A stretch of DNA of 64,000 bases. Origin: Ignavibacteria bacterium. GTDB lineage: Bacteria > Bacteroidota > Ignavibacteria > Ignavibacteriales > Ignavibacteriaceae. The translations under genes were made by a program, and so were the position numbers. The notes under the pieces are model-generated. The model was not told the origin of the DNA. It saw nothing but the letters and a program-made list of their open reading frames with translations, and did no database searches. Below are positions 3,565 through 61,137 of the stretch, one piece after another (positions within the stretch are counted from its first letter, which is position 1; the number at the start of each line of letters is the position of its first letter). The stretch is taken from contig JAUXVN010000088.1 in NCBI GenBank assembly GCA_030684555.1, forward strand, positions 1 through 64,000, read 5' to 3'.

Positions 3565-4200
3565 ATGATTAAGCAAGTTTTTTTCGTTGATTTTTATAAT
3601 TCCCTTATCGACGGAAACAAAGAAAACTGTATTTCAATAGTTTCGCAGTTATTTAACGATGGCGTAGAACACGCGGATATCTATATTGAACTTTATCAAA
3701 ATGCATTGTATAAAATTGGGAAAGATTGGGACAAGGGATTTTGTACAATTGTTGATGAACACATCTCATCCAGAATAATTGAATTTTTATTGTACCGGTT
3801 TGCCCCAAATGTATCTAAAAAAAATAAAAACGGAAAAAAAGCTGTAATCCTCTGTATTGACAAAGAACAGCATTCAATTGGTGCTCTTATGGCATCACAT
3901 ACATTTGAATTAAATGGTTGGGCCACTTTGTATCTTGGCTCCTCTACACCAAATAAAGAATCACTAAAACTAATTGAGCTAAAGAAACCTGATATACTCG
4001 GGATTTCTTTCAACTTTTATTTGAACATTAAAAGATTAACCGATTTAATAGAATTAATAAGAACGCATTATCCTAAACAAAAGATTATAATCGGTGGACA
4101 GGGATTAAAAGAGAATAATATTAATTTGTTATCGGTTTTTCCTGATATTCAGTACTTCAAATCGATAATTGAACTGGATAAGTTTTTAAAAGAAAATTAA
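3565..4200 (+). CDS. Free-standing cobalamin-binding domain protein
   Basis: 211 residues with two parts. A helical cap like the B12-binding-2 module (about 8-90) contains the W-D-K-G element and an EHISSRI helix. A Rossmann-like B12-binding domain follows (about 92-210). The cobalamin loop usually reads DxHxxG; here it is EQHSIG near residue 112, so the histidine that coordinates cobalt and the glycine are kept while Asp is replaced by Glu. Other core elements (LGSSTP, ILGISFNFY, IIIGGQG) fit. There is no methyltransferase, mutase or DNA-binding domain on the chain or nearby, so it is a separate corrinoid protein or a light/B12 sensor module. It stands alone between tRNA-Leu and the MCE operon. 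Confidence 0.82.
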   Translation: MIKQVFFVDFYNSLIDGNKENCISIVSQLFNDGVEHADIYIELYQNALYKIGKDWDKGFCTIVDEHISSRIIEFLLYRFAPNVSKKNKNGKKAVILCIDKEQHSIGALMASHTFELNGWATLYLGSSTPNKESLKLIELKKPDILGISFNFYLNIKRLTDLIELIRTHYPKQKIIIGGQGLKENNINLLSVFPDIQYFKSIIELDKFLKEN

Positions 4201-4358: not shown

Positions 4359-5153
4359 ATGAAATCGTTATTGAATATAGAAGCACGTCCCAAATCGCTA
4401 ATTCAAAGTCAAAATAGACTTCGTAGTTTTCTATTATATAACTTAGAAATATTCCTTGAAACAATTCAATTCTACTCACAGTGGAAAATAAATAGAAATA
4501 TTCTATACCGTCAAATATTATTTACTGGTTTTGAAGCTCTTGGAATTATCACGTTAATAGCAGTAGTTATTGGGGGTCTCATAATATTAGAAGGTAATTC
4601 TATCTTAACAAATTTTGGACAAAGTAAGTTACTTTTTACAATACTTGTAAGTGTTATTACGAGAGAACTTGGCTGTGTTCTGACAGCTTTTATCGTAACC
4701 GCACGCTCGGGTACCGCAATTGCAACAGAACTTGGAAACATGGTTGTCAATCAAGAGATCGAAGCATTGCAATCGTTTGGTATTTCTCCTATTTCTTATC
4801 TTGTTTTACCCCGACTTCTTGGTGTTATTATTTCCATGATTACTTTGAGTATTTATTTTAATGTGGCAGCATTATTTGGCGGTTGGATTATTGCATCTCT
4901 TTTTCATCCTATTGATTTCCTTGAGTTTATGAATTCATTATTTCAGGAACTTTTAATTGCTGATATAATTCTTGGATTGGTGAAGTCATTTTTCTTCGGA
5001 TACATTATTGCATCAGTCTCTAGTTATCAGGGGCTTCAGGTTAGTTTTGCAAGAACGGAAGTCCCGCAACGAACAATTAAGGCGGTTGTTTTTTCTTTAA
5101 GCGGTGTAATTGTTGCAGATATAGTTTTAACTCTCATGTATTATTTTTATTAA
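4359..5153 (+). CDS. mlaE: MlaE-type ABC permease of an MCE lipid transport system
   Basis: 264 residues of the MlaE/YrbE permease family, an inner-membrane protein that works with MCE proteins to move phospholipids between membranes. After an amphipathic N-terminal region there are about five membrane segments. The family-typical core is intact: RELGCVLTAFIVTARSGTA, ATELGNMVVNQEIEALQSFG and YLVLPRLLG. It is first in an operon whose next gene begins directly after its stop codon. The permease looks fully conserved, in contrast to its ATPase partner. The symbol follows the family; species-specific naming may differ. Confidence 0.92.
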   Translation: MKSLLNIEARPKSLIQSQNRLRSFLLYNLEIFLETIQFYSQWKINRNILYRQILFTGFEALGIITLIAVVIGGLIILEGNSILTNFGQSKLLFTILVSVITRELGCVLTAFIVTARSGTAIATELGNMVVNQEIEALQSFGISPISYLVLPRLLGVIISMITLSIYFNVAALFGGWIIASLFHPIDFLEFMNSLFQELLIADIILGLVKSFFFGYIIASVSSYQGLQVSFARTEVPQRTIKAVVFSLSGVIVADIVLTLMYYFY

Positions 5154-5909
5154 ATGAATTTAGAAGCAAAAAATATTACTTGTAAGGTAGGGAATACAGT
5201 TATTCTTCAAAATTTTAATTGTATTTTCCCATATGGTGAACTAATCGGAATTCTAACTTCTCCAAAAGAGAAAACTGAATTGATTCTGAAATCACTTTGC
5301 GGTCTATACGATTTGGAAGAAGGTGAAGTTTTATTAGAAAACGAAATTGTAAATCCAATACTTGAAATTAATTTGCGTTCTGTACGGAAGAAAATATCCT
5401 TCGTATTTCGAAGCGGCGGACTTTTATCTAATCTAACAATACTTGAAAACTTATTATTACCACTTGACTTCCATTTCCCCGAAAAAACTTCCGAAGAAAA
5501 GTCAAAAATCATTAACGAATATATTGCGAAATTTGAAATAGACAATTCTATATTTGAGATGAGACCTGCTCAATTAGCTGTTCATGAACACAAATTAATT
5601 TTAATTATACGTGGTTTTATAACCGAACCAAAGATTATCCTCTATGAAGAACCGACAGATGGACTCGACATTCGTTCACGAGTTCTTGTTATCAGAGAAA
5701 TATTTAGAAGAAGAAAAGAGAGGAAATGTATACAAATTTTCTCAACTCATTTCGAAAACAAGTTAATGAAATATTCAGACCATTTGCTTGTTATTGATAA
5801 GGGTAAACTGATTGAATCAGGTAATATTGTGGAATTATCCGAATCTGAATATTTACAGACGCAACTATTATTAAAAGATTATTTATTGAGCATTGAAAAT
5901 GAAACTTAA
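5154..5909 (+). CDS. MlaF-like ABC ATPase subunit with degenerate nucleotide-binding motifs
   Basis: 251 residues that align over their whole length with the MlaF ATPase of MCE transporters, in the usual place after the permease. Key motifs are changed. The Walker A region reads GILTSPKEKTELI instead of a GPSGxGKST loop. The Q-loop is VFRSGG, with Arg for Gln. The signature LSGG is replaced by LAVH (PAQLAVHEHK). Walker B is IILYEEP, with Glu for the Mg-binding Asp and the catalytic Glu kept. The D-loop (GLD) and H-loop (STH) remain. The gene is intact and AT-rich like its neighbours, so it does not look like a decaying pseudogene. It may be a structural pseudo-ATPase, or another ATPase may energise the system. 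Confidence 0.88.
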   Translation: MNLEAKNITCKVGNTVILQNFNCIFPYGELIGILTSPKEKTELILKSLCGLYDLEEGEVLLENEIVNPILEINLRSVRKKISFVFRSGGLLSNLTILENLLLPLDFHFPEKTSEEKSKIINEYIAKFEIDNSIFEMRPAQLAVHEHKLILIIRGFITEPKIILYEEPTDGLDIRSRVLVIREIFRRRKERKCIQIFSTHFENKLMKYSDHLLVIDKGKLIESGNIVELSESEYLQTQLLLKDYLLSIENET

Positions 5910-6951
5910 ATTTAGATATACCGAAAAAATAATAGGAACATTTTTATTAATTGCAGTTGTTATTGTATTCTCATCTATTTTGTTCTTATTGTTAAATCAA
6001 AAATTTTTTGAGAGAAAATATGTTTATAAAGCCAAGTTTCTTGATGCTGTAGGATTATCACAAAATAGTCCGGTTTATTTTAAGGGATTTAAAATCGGAA
6101 TTATTTCTAATTTTGTTTTAGGTGATGATAATTATATCTCAGCCGATTTTGAAGTTTATTCAGATTTTAAAGATAAAATTATTGTGAAAAGTGCATTATA
6201 TAAGGCAGTGAATGTTATTACTCAAGCAAGTACAATTGAATTTCTGCAAAGTGTTGAAGATGGTGAAATATTAGCAGAAGGTTCACTTATTCCAGCGATT
6301 GACGTTCCTGAAGGCAAACAGCTTTTAGCACAAAACAGAGTTAAAAAAATAGGCGATCCACTAAATTCAATGCTAATAAATCTTGAAGGACTTGTTGAAA
6401 ATCTGCAAAAAGATAATAATCCCGATGAAGGAGCTTTATTTCGCGCTCTTGTTAATTTAGCAGATGCAGCAGAGCAATTAAAAAAACTTTCAGACAATAT
6501 AAATCGGGACCTTGATAAGCTAAGTAATAAAGAAAGTGAAAATGGTGCACTCTATCAAGTTGTTGTTAATCTAAACGATATAACAAGAGACCTAAAAACT
6601 ACGACAGCATTGACTAATCAGATTTTGAAAAAAACCGATCTTGCTATTTCCAATTATTCAAAACCTGATAGTTTAGGAATTAAACTTATTGATCCTACAG
6701 GTGAAAATATTGTAAATCCGCTAAGAAAAACATTTACACAGTTGAACGAAATACTTCCAAAAGTCCAATCATTTACAGAATATTTAAATGCTCAAACAAC
6801 CGATATAACACTTGTAATAGATGATCTTAAAACCGTTCTAAGACAAGTACAGCAAACATTTGAGAGTCTAAATAAAAATCCTCTAATTGGACCCGGCGGA
6901 ACAGAAATGAATCAATCTTATTATGAATTAAATCAAAAACGTCCGAAATAA
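5899..6951 (+). CDS. MCE-domain (MlaD-like) lipid-binding protein
   Basis: About 350 residues. An N-terminal membrane anchor (about 10-31) is followed by one MCE domain (about 38-115) with the typical AVGLSQNSPVYFKGFKIG core, then a long helical C-terminal region rich in N, L and K. That region probably forms the coiled-coil tube or stalk seen in longer MCE proteins. It is anchored in the inner membrane and carries lipid between the permease and the outer membrane. ATG 5899 is chosen over an in-frame TTG at 5893; it overlaps the ATPase-like gene by 11 bases, indicating coupled translation. A second MCE protein is encoded at 59865. Confidence 0.9.
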   Translation: MKLKFRYTEKIIGTFLLIAVVIVFSSILFLLLNQKFFERKYVYKAKFLDAVGLSQNSPVYFKGFKIGIISNFVLGDDNYISADFEVYSDFKDKIIVKSALYKAVNVITQASTIEFLQSVEDGEILAEGSLIPAIDVPEGKQLLAQNRVKKIGDPLNSMLINLEGLVENLQKDNNPDEGALFRALVNLADAAEQLKKLSDNINRDLDKLSNKESENGALYQVVVNLNDITRDLKTTTALTNQILKKTDLAISNYSKPDSLGIKLIDPTGENIVNPLRKTFTQLNEILPKVQSFTEYLNAQTTDITLVIDDLKTVLRQVQQTFESLNKNPLIGPGGTEMNQSYYELNQKRPK

Positions 6952-6955
6952 AATT

Positions 6956-7825
6956 ATGAAGACATTAAGAAAATTATTTTTAAGTTCTATCATTTGCAGT
7001 TTAATACTGATTGGGGGCTGTTATCAATCCGGTGGAGAGAAAATGAATCTTAATCAATCTGTAACAGACGGTTATCGGTTGATTGATTATGCAAACCGTT
7101 TGAGTACATTAAAAAACTATAGAAATGCGGTTAATAATTATTTATTAGCTTATAATCGGTTTGCACTTGCGGATTATATTGATGGAAGATTAGATGCTGC
7201 GACTAAATTAGTTTTAGTTTATAAATATATTGGTCTTAAGGATTCATCAGACTATTGGTTAAAAAAATCAGAAGAGATTTCAGAATATTCAATCAACCTA
7301 AAAGAGAAGTATCTGCTGATAAAAGTTAAATACTTGTATGAGGAAAATGCTTATACAGAGGTTTTAAGATATCTATCAAAAATAGATATTGATAAATTTA
7401 TTGTAGGTATAAAAGTTGAAATCCTTTCGTATAAAATCTTAGCTGCAACCATTAGCTCAGTAGATGCAATCGATAGTTATAACAGCCTACATTCAACACT
7501 TACAAGTTTGACAAAAAAAGACCAGATCAGTTATGAAGTAGTTAGTTTTGGTTGGTATACACTCGGTTACAGTGATTTCTATAAAAAAGATATAACTAAT
7601 GCAAATATTAAATTTAATATGTCATTGAGTATTGATAAAGAGAAGGGTAATAGTGAGGGAATTGCTGATAATCTTTTTATGTTAGGTAAATGTGCAGAGT
7701 TTGATGGAAATAAAAACGAAGCTTTAATTTATTATGAAAGAGCTTTAGAAATTTATAAAGTATTAAACTCAACTGAATTAGTTTCTGAACTAATTAATAA
7801 AATCTCTTTATTACGCAAAAGTTGA
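6956..7825 (+). CDS. TPR-repeat lipoprotein of the MCE operon
   Basis: 289 residues beginning with a lipoprotein signal peptide that ends in the lipobox LIGG-Cys (Cys at about residue 22). The mature part is helical and contains tetratricopeptide-like repeats, clearest near the C-terminus (ADNLFMLGKCAEFDGN, ALIYYERALEIYKVL). The gene starts 4 bases after the MCE gene stop and closes the operon. A lipoprotein in this place could be the outer-membrane partner of the transport system, filling the role MlaA or a porin plays elsewhere; that is inferred from context only. Confidence 0.78.
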   Translation: MKTLRKLFLSSIICSLILIGGCYQSGGEKMNLNQSVTDGYRLIDYANRLSTLKNYRNAVNNYLLAYNRFALADYIDGRLDAATKLVLVYKYIGLKDSSDYWLKKSEEISEYSINLKEKYLLIKVKYLYEENAYTEVLRYLSKIDIDKFIVGIKVEILSYKILAATISSVDAIDSYNSLHSTLTSLTKKDQISYEVVSFGWYTLGYSDFYKKDITNANIKFNMSLSIDKEKGNSEGIADNLFMLGKCAEFDGNKNEALIYYERALEIYKVLNSTELVSELINKISLLRKS

Positions 7826-58195: not shown

Positions 58196-59890
58196 TCAAT
58201 GTCCTGCAGCGTGACCACTGCCTCTTTTATCTGAGACACCATAAATTAGATTATTTTTTTGGTCAATCATTATTGCTTCAACCAATCCAAGTAATCGTGT
58301 CTTTCCAATTTTGTGACCTTTGGTTTTCAGTTGTTTTAAGATTTCATCCGAAAAACTTTCTTTTTCAATATCGAAATGGTCAGGCAGCCATTGATGATGT
58401 ATTCTAGGGTTATTAACTGCATCACTTAAATTTGAATTGAAATAGAGTGCGTTAAGAATAACTTGAGCTACTACAGTAATTATTGTTGATCCTCCCGGTG
58501 ATCCAACTATTAGATAGGAATTGTTGTCCTTTAAAACAATGGTTGGAGTCATTGAACTTAACATTCTTTTCTTCGGTTGGATGGAATTTGCTTCACTACC
58601 AACTAAACCAAATTGATTTGGTGTACCCGGTTTAGCACTGAAATCATCCATCTCATTATTTAATAATATTCCGGTTCCATCAGCTATTAGTTTCGAGCCA
58701 TAACCTCCATTTAAAGTGTAGGTTACACTAACGGCATTTCCATATTGATCGTAGATTGAATAATGTGTTGTCTCTTCACTTTCATTAAATAAATCATTCA
58801 CAAAAGATTTAATTTCAAAAGATGGAGTCGCAATTTTACTAATTTTTTCAAATTGGGATTTAGAATATTCTTTAGAAATTAATTTTTGAATTGGTATTTT
58901 TAAATAATCGGGATCACCTAAATGTTCAGCACGATCTGCATAAACTAATTTAAGTATTTCAATTAAGTAATGATAATAATCGGAGCTGTCTAAATTAGAT
59001 TTATCATAATTTGTATGTTCAAACATATTCAGAATTTGGACAAGAGCAATTCCGCCTGAACTTGGAGGCGGCATGGATATTATTTCATAACCATTGAAAT
59101 TCCCATTAATTACATTTCGTTCTTTAACTTCATAATTTTGCAAATCATTAATCGAGAATGAACCTCCGTTTTCATTAATTGATTTTACAATTTTTTCGGC
59201 AATTTCTCCTGAATAAAAACCAGCCCTTTCGTTTACTTTAATTTTTTCTAAAGTTTTTGCAAGATCTTTTTGATAAAAAATATCACCTTCTTTAAAAGGT
59301 AAATCTTTAACAAAGATTTCCTTTGTTGATGCGAATTTCTTGAAATCGTTTTTATAATCATTGAAAGACTTAGCATTACTTTTAGATAACGGGAAACCCA
59401 TTTCAGCCAGATTTATAGCGGGTTGTATCAATTCATCAATCGTCTTTGTTCCATATTTATCAAGTGCATATAAAAGTCCGGCAACAGTACCTGGTACCCC
59501 GACTGCAAGTCCCCCTTCTAAACTTTTTTTCTGAACAAAATTTCCAAGTGAATCAAGATACATATCTCTTGTAGCCATGATAGGAGCGGTTTCACGGAAG
59601 TCGATTGCAATATTTTTACCATCATTCATGTGAGCGATCATAAAACCGCCGCCGCCAATATTTCCTGCAGTTGGATAAGTTACTGCGAGTGCAAATCCGA
59701 CAGCGACTGCTGCATCAACCGCATTCCCACCTTTTTTAAGAATTTGCACTCCAACTTTGGTGGCTAATTCTTCTGCGGATACAACCATTCCATTTTTAGA
59801 TTCAGCATATTTTATAGACTGAGGATAGCAAATAGCTAGTGAAAAGAATAGTAATAATAAAACATTAGAATAATTTAATTTTTGTCTCAA
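58196..59890 (-). CDS. ggt: Gamma-glutamyltransferase
   Basis: 564 residues with an N-terminal signal peptide (VLLLLFFSLAICYPQ). It is an N-terminal nucleophile hydrolase that self-cleaves before the catalytic Thr in EETTHYSIYDQYGNAVSVTY. Substrate-site motifs are AVDAAVAVGFALAVTYPTAG, GNIGGGGFMIAHM, DFRETAP and GSPGGSTIITVVAQVILN. It acts in the periplasm on glutathione or gamma-glutamyl peptides. It overlaps the MCE gene upstream by 26 bases, an unusual pairing. Confidence 0.95.
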   Translation of the reverse strand: MRQKLNYSNVLLLLFFSLAICYPQSIKYAESKNGMVVSAEELATKVGVQILKKGGNAVDAAVAVGFALAVTYPTAGNIGGGGFMIAHMNDGKNIAIDFRETAPIMATRDMYLDSLGNFVQKKSLEGGLAVGVPGTVAGLLYALDKYGTKTIDELIQPAINLAEMGFPLSKSNAKSFNDYKNDFKKFASTKEIFVKDLPFKEGDIFYQKDLAKTLEKIKVNERAGFYSGEIAEKIVKSINENGGSFSINDLQNYEVKERNVINGNFNGYEIISMPPPSSGGIALVQILNMFEHTNYDKSNLDSSDYYHYLIEILKLVYADRAEHLGDPDYLKIPIQKLISKEYSKSQFEKISKIATPSFEIKSFVNDLFNESEETTHYSIYDQYGNAVSVTYTLNGGYGSKLIADGTGILLNNEMDDFSAKPGTPNQFGLVGSEANSIQPKKRMLSSMTPTIVLKDNNSYLIVGSPGGSTIITVVAQVILNALYFNSNLSDAVNNPRIHHQWLPDHFDIEKESFSDEILKQLKTKGHKIGKTRLLGLVEAIMIDQKNNLIYGVSDKRGSGHAAGH

Positions 59891-60779
59891 CTTTCAATCC
59901 GTTTTTATGCATTTGTTCAAGTGCTAAATCAGTTAGTTCTTTAATGTTTTTTAAAGTTGAGTTCAAATCTTTAATTAGATTCTCATCATACAAAATTTTA
60001 CCGAAATTATTTTGTTTATTTTGAGTTTCATTAACTAAATAATTCAATGAATTCAATAAACTGTCAGTTTGAGAAATAACTAAACCTAATTTTTCTACAG
60101 ACAAATTAATTGATTCCTTATTTGTCTTAATTAGGTCTTTAGCATCTGTTGTGATTTCGACACTATTTTTTGCTATGAGGTCTAAATTTCTTTTGTTATC
60201 CTCAATTAATTTTTTCATTTGAATTGTTATGTCAGAAAGGTTTGTAATTGTCGATTTAATTTCACCGCTCATTTTTTGATCTGTTAAATAACCATTCAAT
60301 GAATTTAGTGATGTTTTTATTTCACTCATTATTTCCGGCAACTGCTTGTCTAACGATCCCAGCATTGCAACCATTTCAGGTATATCAGCATAAAATATTC
60401 CCGATTGAATAACTGAATAGTCTAAATTCTGATTAGAAGAACCGGGTTTAATTTCAACTTTTTTACCTCCCATCATGTCCAGCATAATAATACCAAAAAC
60501 CGCATCAGATTTTAATGCGACATCATGATCGAGACTCGAAGAAACCCTAACTTTGTTGCCGATATTTTTAACATCATCAACAAAACCTTTTCTAACACCA
60601 TTAACTGTAACTTGATCACCAATCTCAAGTCCGGCAGTATTTTCAAATTCAACTTGAACAATTCTTCGATCAGAAGAAAAAGTAAAATTTTTAGCCCAAC
60701 CGAATATCCATATAAATAAAATTAAGCTTAATGTAACTGTAATGCCTACTTTTATCTCAGTTTTTCTTTCGTTTTTCAT
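59865..60779 (-). CDS. Second MCE-domain lipid-transport protein
   Basis: 304 residues. One N-terminal membrane helix (about 10-30) is followed by an MCE domain (about 38-115) with VEFENTAGLEIGDQVTVNG and VRKGFVDDVKN, then a long helical, Asn- and Lys-rich tail. It is anchored in the inner membrane. No MlaE or MlaF gene is adjacent, so it either uses the 4.4-5.9 kb system or partners encoded elsewhere. It overlaps the unknown gene upstream by 23 bases. Confidence 0.9.
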   Translation of the reverse strand: MKNERKTEIKVGITVTLSLILFIWIFGWAKNFTFSSDRRIVQVEFENTAGLEIGDQVTVNGVRKGFVDDVKNIGNKVRVSSSLDHDVALKSDAVFGIIMLDMMGGKKVEIKPGSSNQNLDYSVIQSGIFYADIPEMVAMLGSLDKQLPEIMSEIKTSLNSLNGYLTDQKMSGEIKSTITNLSDITIQMKKLIEDNKRNLDLIAKNSVEITTDAKDLIKTNKESINLSVEKLGLVISQTDSLLNSLNYLVNETQNKQNNFGKILYDENLIKDLNSTLKNIKELTDLALEQMHKNGLKVETKIKLF

Positions 60780-61137
60780 ATCTTAAAATCTCTTCTATTA
60801 AAGATTTAATCTCAGAAATTTCATCTTTAGAAATTTCTGAATCCTTCAATGATTTATTTAGTGCAACACCGAGTTTTTCTAATTTACTCATCTCAATTGT
60901 TTTAATATCTCTAATGCTTATTGCAAAAGAATTTATAAGACTATCTAATTCAAGTTTTTGTGGAGTTTCAGGAATTTTATCAAACTTTTCGTTAAACTCA
61001 CTTAATGCAAAATTGAGAGCAAAATCTTGAATTGGCTTTTTAACAAAGTCATCAAATTTATTTGTCACAATATAAATAATTGCTGCTAAAAATATCGTTG
61101 CAATAATTAATGATTTAACAAAACATCCTGTTTTCAT
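60757..61137 (-). CDS. Membrane-anchored protein of unknown function
   Basis: 126 residues with a Cys-containing basic start (MKTGCFVK), one membrane helix (about 9-24) and a charged helical remainder with a coiled-coil tendency (IEMSKLEKLGVALNKSLKD). No family is recognised. It is translationally coupled to the CNNM gene upstream (4-base overlap) and the MCE gene downstream (23-base overlap), so it may be an accessory to the MCE protein. That is only inferred. Confidence 0.68.
   Translation of the reverse strand: MKTGCFVKSLIIATIFLAAIIYIVTNKFDDFVKKPIQDFALNFALSEFNEKFDKIPETPQKLELDSLINSFAISIRDIKTIEMSKLEKLGVALNKSLKDSEISKDEISEIKSLIEEILRYEKRKKN

Follow-up and report, generated by a model that had tools for sequence, protein, structure and literature searches.

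How does a lipid transporter of the Mla type work when the ATPase encoded in its own operon has lost the residues that handle ATP? The question is raised by an operon in the window, the 64,000-nucleotide stretch of an Ignavibacteria contig analyzed here, in which the gene for an MlaF-like subunit with degenerate motifs, termed pseudo-MlaF, lies between those for an MlaE-family permease and an MCE protein. Both the direction in which Mla-type systems move phospholipids and the part played by ATP are disputed: outward transfer without ATP is reported from in vitro work, and the genetic data agree with retrograde transport driven by ATP (PMC10212509). If an MCE-MlaE system with a dead ATPase exists in nature, it would be a direct test of the role of ATP in Mla-type transport. 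In the open-licence PMC papers that we searched, no account of such a class came up.

The operon and its ATPase subunit

The operon encodes, in order, MlaE, pseudo-MlaF, an MCE protein and, usually, a TPR lipoprotein, and is often preceded by a gene for a B12-binding protein. The features in the window are:

3565..4200 (+), B12-binding protein (B12-binding_2 cap and B12-binding domain; Pfam), co-directional with and upstream of the MlaE gene
4359..5153 (+), MlaE-family permease of a distinct clade (PF02405, 207 bits; clade support; motif comparison)
5154..5909 (+), pseudo-MlaF, a degenerate ABC nucleotide-binding subunit (Pfam, motif alignment, AlphaFold2, fold search)
5256..5279 (+), codons of the Walker A position, TSPKEKTE (residues 35-42), canonical GKSGTGKS (motif alignment)
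5400..5465 (+), Q-loop and putative permease-contact stretch FVFRSGGLLSNLTILENLLLPL, with Arg86 at the Q-loop Gln
5562..5588 (+), RPAQ and the signature position LAVHE (141-145), canonical LSGGM (motif alignment)
5634..5654 (+), Walker B position IILYEEP, with the Mg-binding Asp changed to Glu165 and the catalytic Glu166 kept
5655..5669 (+), D-loop TDGLD (168-172), kept (motif alignment)
5748..5750 (+), H-loop His199, kept in the window protein
5899..6951 (+), MCE (MlaD-like) protein of 350 aa (PF02470; ORF 5893-6951, ATG at 5899)
6956..7825 (+), TPR protein, candidate outer-membrane partner (Pfam TPR_12/TPR_2; synteny)

The permease (PF02405), whose profile matches MlaE chains in the PDB (e.g. 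7ch8_G, E 7.9e-35), adjoins an MCE protein (PF02470), and an ABC nucleotide-binding domain (NBD) fold is encoded between the two (PF00005; AlphaFold2 model against 6xgz_C). The MCE gene begins within the end of the pseudo-MlaF gene, the two sharing 11 nt. The MCE protein has an N-terminal TM helix, a single MCE domain and ~190 aa predicted to be helical (AlphaFold2, alignment); its model has a mean pLDDT of 58.9, with the TM helix and MCE domain confident and the helical C-terminus of low confidence. A lipobox-like LIGGC can be read at the N-terminus of the TPR protein, whose gene lies 3' of the MCE gene in most relatives. No genes for MlaB, MlaC or MlaA were seen within the operon. The B12-binding gene is conserved upstream in many relatives, including distant ones, but not in all (synteny in L041, L044, L046, L047, L048, L049 and L113), and a DNA-binding domain is absent from the Pfam matches of its product.

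The original prediction regarded the operon as normal apart from its ATPase. That it is an MCE operon holds, but it belongs to a separate MlaE/MCE clade with a gene order of its own, and the canonical MlaEFD operons of this genome lie on contigs C5 and C6. In the MlaE tree the operon permeases form one clade (support 99/96) apart from canonical MlaEs, and the NBD tree agrees (operon clade 94/87). The operon permeases keep the coupling-helix region (ARSGTAIxTELGNMVVNxEI) and read TEVPQRTIKxVV at the position of the canonical G-E-G-V-G; both in this stretch and near the coupling helix they diverge from their canonical counterparts.

The pseudo-MlaF frame is intact over 251 aa, as had been claimed. 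Its only Pfam match is to ABC_tran (PF00005), at 44.5 bits; nearly all full-length NBDs of the same genome score roughly 70-129 bits. Compared residue by residue with P0002, an intact MlaF of the same genome (on C6), it lacks the Walker A motif, the Q-loop Gln, the LSGG signature and the Walker B Asp, in every detail as predicted, and the retention of TDGLD and His199 was borne out as well. Since intact Walker A, Q-loop, LSGG and Walker B motifs were looked for and are missing, we place pseudo-MlaF outside the active ABC ATPases. The degeneracy of the window protein is nevertheless incomplete, as the second Walker B Glu, the D-loop and the H-loop His remain.

The body of the NBD is predicted to be complete. 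The AlphaFold2 model, built from 14 sequences, reaches a mean pLDDT of 89.4, and its best Foldseek match in the PDB is E. coli MlaF (6xgz_C, TMq 0.84, 2.4 A). With VIA-align many NBDs fall within a small Z range and MlaF is tied with several others, and a PDB search with the pseudo-MlaF sequence alone returns mixed ABC proteins, MlaF not first. Pseudo-MlaF probably descends from an MlaF-type NBD, whose fold it is predicted to retain.

Orthologues, motif loss and selection

A protein search of 80 genomes of the family gave a top group of matches at 114-147 bits, everything else scoring below 100; one more pseudo-MlaF (L029) was found below the top group, at 90 bits. The top-group matches sit in a conserved MlaE - pseudo-MlaF - MCE operon. 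With an MlaE profile the operon was detected in 16 of the 80 family genomes and 19 of 164 genomes of the order (both >300 bits), and in 13 of 395 genomes of the phylum (>340 bits). Its carriers are metagenome-assembled genomes labelled Ignavibacteria, Ignavibacteriales, Ignavibacteriaceae, Melioribacteraceae and Bacteroidetes. The distribution is patchy, since the operon is absent from G059, the sole genome of the same genus that was compared (86% complete). The closest MlaE relatives of the window (L043 and L045, up to 61% identity) also have a degenerate NBD gene. The window pseudo-MlaF itself has no close relative, the best identity among the NBDs being 37-38%. Neither the NBD profile, in the class, nor the MlaE profile, in the order and phylum, found an intact orthologue at this locus; there are partly degenerate ones only. 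The orthologues share the losses, and of the observations named beforehand as refuting the original prediction none appeared. Two side observations concern related genes. A second, stand-alone pseudo-MlaF gene lies at L050 4863-5618 (contig C450 of G057), where its neighbour is a response-regulator-like ORF and neither an MlaE nor an MCE gene accompanies it; duplication or faulty binning could account for it. Long MlaEs of ~360-380 aa occur in other families of the class (L151, L153 and L155), with no MlaF within 1.5 kb flanks.

Among the 25 pseudo-MlaFs the SGG of LSGG is kept in none, the Walker A Lys in 7, the Q-loop Gln in 8, the Walker B Asp in 18, the Walker B Glu in 9 and the H-loop His in 2. 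All of these residues are kept in 15/15 canonical MlaFs. By this sequence comparison the loss is far beyond chance, as LSGG is lost in 25/25 orthologues and the other motifs in most. A sequencing or frame error can be ruled out, because orthologues of the same length carry the same losses in many genomes, including the single-contig G032.

Seven clade members (L060, L062, L063, L147, L149, L150 and L169) are intermediates in which the Walker A Lys is present and the signature absent, and these could bind ATP. Mapped on the MlaE tree, and so independently of the NBD sequences, the Walker A Lys requires four changes by parsimony, or five losses without regain (bootstrap range 2-7). About five independent losses are what would be expected if constraint on the P-loop ended once the signature was gone. 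Read most simply, the signature disappeared on the stem and the P-loop eroded afterwards, on several occasions. The clade would then offer a graded evolutionary series, from intact through signature lost to P-loop lost, in which the ABC engine was switched off and its scaffold kept.

Such erosion might be the prelude to loss of the gene altogether, and the NBD does evolve faster relative to MlaE in the operon clade (1.4-1.6x) than in canonical systems (0.5-0.66x). Yet the frames of the orthologues are intact and their length conserved, and the gene is present in every complete operon and was never dropped. For the NBD gene, dN/dS is 0.047 (CI 0.021-0.093) between G075 and G076, whose proteins have lost Walker A, Q-loop, LSGG and H-loop alike, and 0.042 (0.015-0.074) between UWPOB_BACT1 and BAC1. 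Both pairs have a dS of about 0.3-0.5 and neither is close to the window gene; more distant pairs were excluded, their dS being either saturated (about 2 or more) or impossible to compute. With dN/dS at ~0.04 in both pairs we reject decay, which strikes us as very improbable. The rate ratio indicates a constraint that is weaker than in active MlaF and far from absent. The proposal of a retained pseudo-ATPase that is not simply decaying is therefore well supported by the shared losses, the presence of the gene in every complete operon and the dN/dS values; the purifying selection on which it had been staked is found in the two measurable pairs of relatives, the window gene lying outside them.

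Constraint has also shifted. Residues invariant within the clade alone (F-x(7)-N, R-P and K, corresponding to Phe88, Asn96, Lys118 and Arg138 in P0002 numbering) are concentrated after the Q-loop. The stretch FVFRSGGLLSNLTILENLLLPL is the best-conserved region of the clade, with F85, N93 and N99 of the window protein invariant in 25/25, and the Arg-Pro preceding the signature position is likewise invariant in all 25 pseudo-MlaFs. In MlaFEDB, contact with MlaF is mediated by the MlaE coupling helix (PMC7790496); from this and from general NBD anatomy we infer that the stretch after the Q-loop is the MlaE contact of pseudo-MlaF. The lost-motif positions are variable across the clade, with no consistent replacement residues. 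That variability is unlike a repurposed active site, and it bears on the idea that pseudo-MlaF is cryptically active, binding and hydrolyzing nucleotide through non-canonical residues as do some proteins first called dead. The complete predicted fold, the second Walker B Glu, D-loop and H-loop His of the window protein and the Walker A of its seven relatives would all suit such an enzyme; however, a single K47A or E170Q substitution already abolishes MlaF function (PMC7367683), and we hold cryptic activity to be improbable.

Energy supply

All 26 operon-carrying genomes have another MlaF homologue, and 29 of the 30 such loci that were read retain all motifs, the remaining one being cut by a contig end. 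The second, intact MlaF envisaged as an outside source of energy is thus present elsewhere in all 26, and it could serve the operon permease in trans. The MlaF from C5 or C6 might replace pseudo-MlaF fully or part-time, pseudo-MlaF being a placeholder or regulator. There is a precedent in mycobacteria, where one MceG is common to Mce1 and Mce4 and also stabilizes the systems (PMC9947336). Sharing may in any case occur in the window's genome, which encodes four MlaEs and only two intact adjacent MlaFs (C5, C6). One MlaE on contig C44 (G000:C44:33334-33963; L039 5206-5976) has no MlaF or MCE gene adjoining, and must either use an NBD encoded elsewhere or function with none. A further MCE gene lies in the window at 59865-60779 (-), after a 126-aa ORF (60757-61137) and with no MlaE or MlaF nearby; it is possibly the partner of this orphan MlaE. 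Against a shared ATPase, intact MlaFs are expected anyway for their own operons, the pseudo-MlaF gene was never dropped and has clade-specific invariant residues, and the operon permeases have diverged just where the coupling helix and the TEVPQRT stretch lie. We consider this explanation unlikely, though not negligible.

An ABC composite site is made of the Walker A of one protomer and the LSGG of the other. The operon holds one NBD gene and no partner NBD that might complete a site, and in a pseudo-MlaF homodimer both halves would be absent, as they are missing from the same polypeptide. A mixed dimer of pseudo-MlaF and intact MlaF would have no complete ATP site either, because pseudo-MlaF brings neither the Walker A half nor the signature half. 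On this composite-site logic we reject a mixed dimer powered by canonical MlaF, which leaves two options, and the balance shifts towards them: either a dimer of intact MlaF takes the place of pseudo-MlaF altogether, or the complex uses no ATP.

The reading we favour, by analogy with in vitro work on Mla as far as passive transport is concerned, is passive transport with a structural NBD: probably a catalytically dead subunit is kept as a clamp on MlaE, and lipids move passively. Pseudo-MlaF would dock on MlaE through the Q-loop and coupling-helix interface, where it would bind no ATP at the P-loop, offer no signature to its partner and presumably hydrolyze nothing. It is probably a dimeric clamp that stabilizes an MlaE2-MCE6 core. 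The complex may let lipids follow their own gradient from one membrane, inner or outer, to the other, with the TPR lipoprotein perhaps acting at the outer membrane end; the loss of the ATP-handling motifs, recurring in a whole family of relatives, suggests a lipid bridge between the membranes without fuel of its own. If such a system works, the MCE-MlaE core would be a conduit by itself and ATP would set the direction. Spontaneous, ATP-independent lipid transfer from MlaD to MlaC has been reported in vitro, as has its prevention by ATP hydrolysis (PMC10212509), and passive transport by the operon would be its in vivo counterpart. In E. coli neither MlaF K47A nor E170Q complements, and MlaF with Walker A or B mutations still binds MlaB (PMC7367683); a pseudo-MlaF system, if it works, must therefore work differently from that of E. 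coli.

Known systems and a second clade

Degenerate NBD motifs are tolerated elsewhere among ABC transporters. TAP and CFTR are heterodimeric, with one degenerate site and one consensus site kept. In contrast, the single NBD gene of the operon lacks both site halves, so that no consensus site can form. PqiABC and LetAB of E. coli are MCE systems for which no ABC ATPase is known. They have PqiA/LetA-type membrane proteins rather than MlaE, and no NBD remnant. Pqi is described as consisting of PqiA, PqiB and PqiC (PMC10897342). The Mce1 and Mce4 systems of Mycobacterium resemble the operon as MCE systems, with an ATPase that acts in trans and also stabilizes the complex (PMC9947336). They differ in that MceG is active and is not encoded in their operons, whereas the window operon keeps its own inactive NBD. 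The core gene content, an E-F-D set of MlaE with its coupling helix, an NBD of MlaF fold and an MCE protein, is shared with MlaFEDB of E. coli, A. baumannii and P. aeruginosa. The operon differs from it in an NBD without Walker A, LSGG and Walker B Asp, and in having, in place of MlaB, MlaC and MlaA, a TPR lipoprotein and an MCE protein with a long helical part; in E. coli, moreover, mutation of Walker A or B leaves MlaF without function (PMC7367683). Annotation of a gene as MlaF from synteny does not imply an ATP-driven system.

The pseudo-MlaF phenomenon is real and broader than a single gene, and is a variant of MCE ABC systems. A second MlaE clade, reached through a weak match in Verrucomicrobia (L096), is present in 55 of 236 genomes of that class. 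In 20 NBDs read from this clade (L096, L210-L228), the Walker A Lys and the Walker B Asp are each kept in 20/20, the SGG of LSGG and the H-loop His in 0/20, and the catalytic Glu in one, being Asn in 14. Other MlaF-like matches occur in all 15 Verrucomicrobia genomes checked (E about 1e-45 or better, judged by match alone). In the unrooted MlaE tree the FCB, Verrucomicrobia and canonical clades are each fully supported, with long stems between them. Whether these two deep MlaE lineages are natural ATP-independent lipid bridges, forming a widespread class of MCE transporters that dropped the ABC engine and kept its body as an obligatory structural part, is to our mind evenly balanced. Their end states differ: in the FCB type the P-loop is lost, and in the Verrucomicrobia type it is kept while LSGG and the H-loop are lost and the catalytic Glu is usually Asn.
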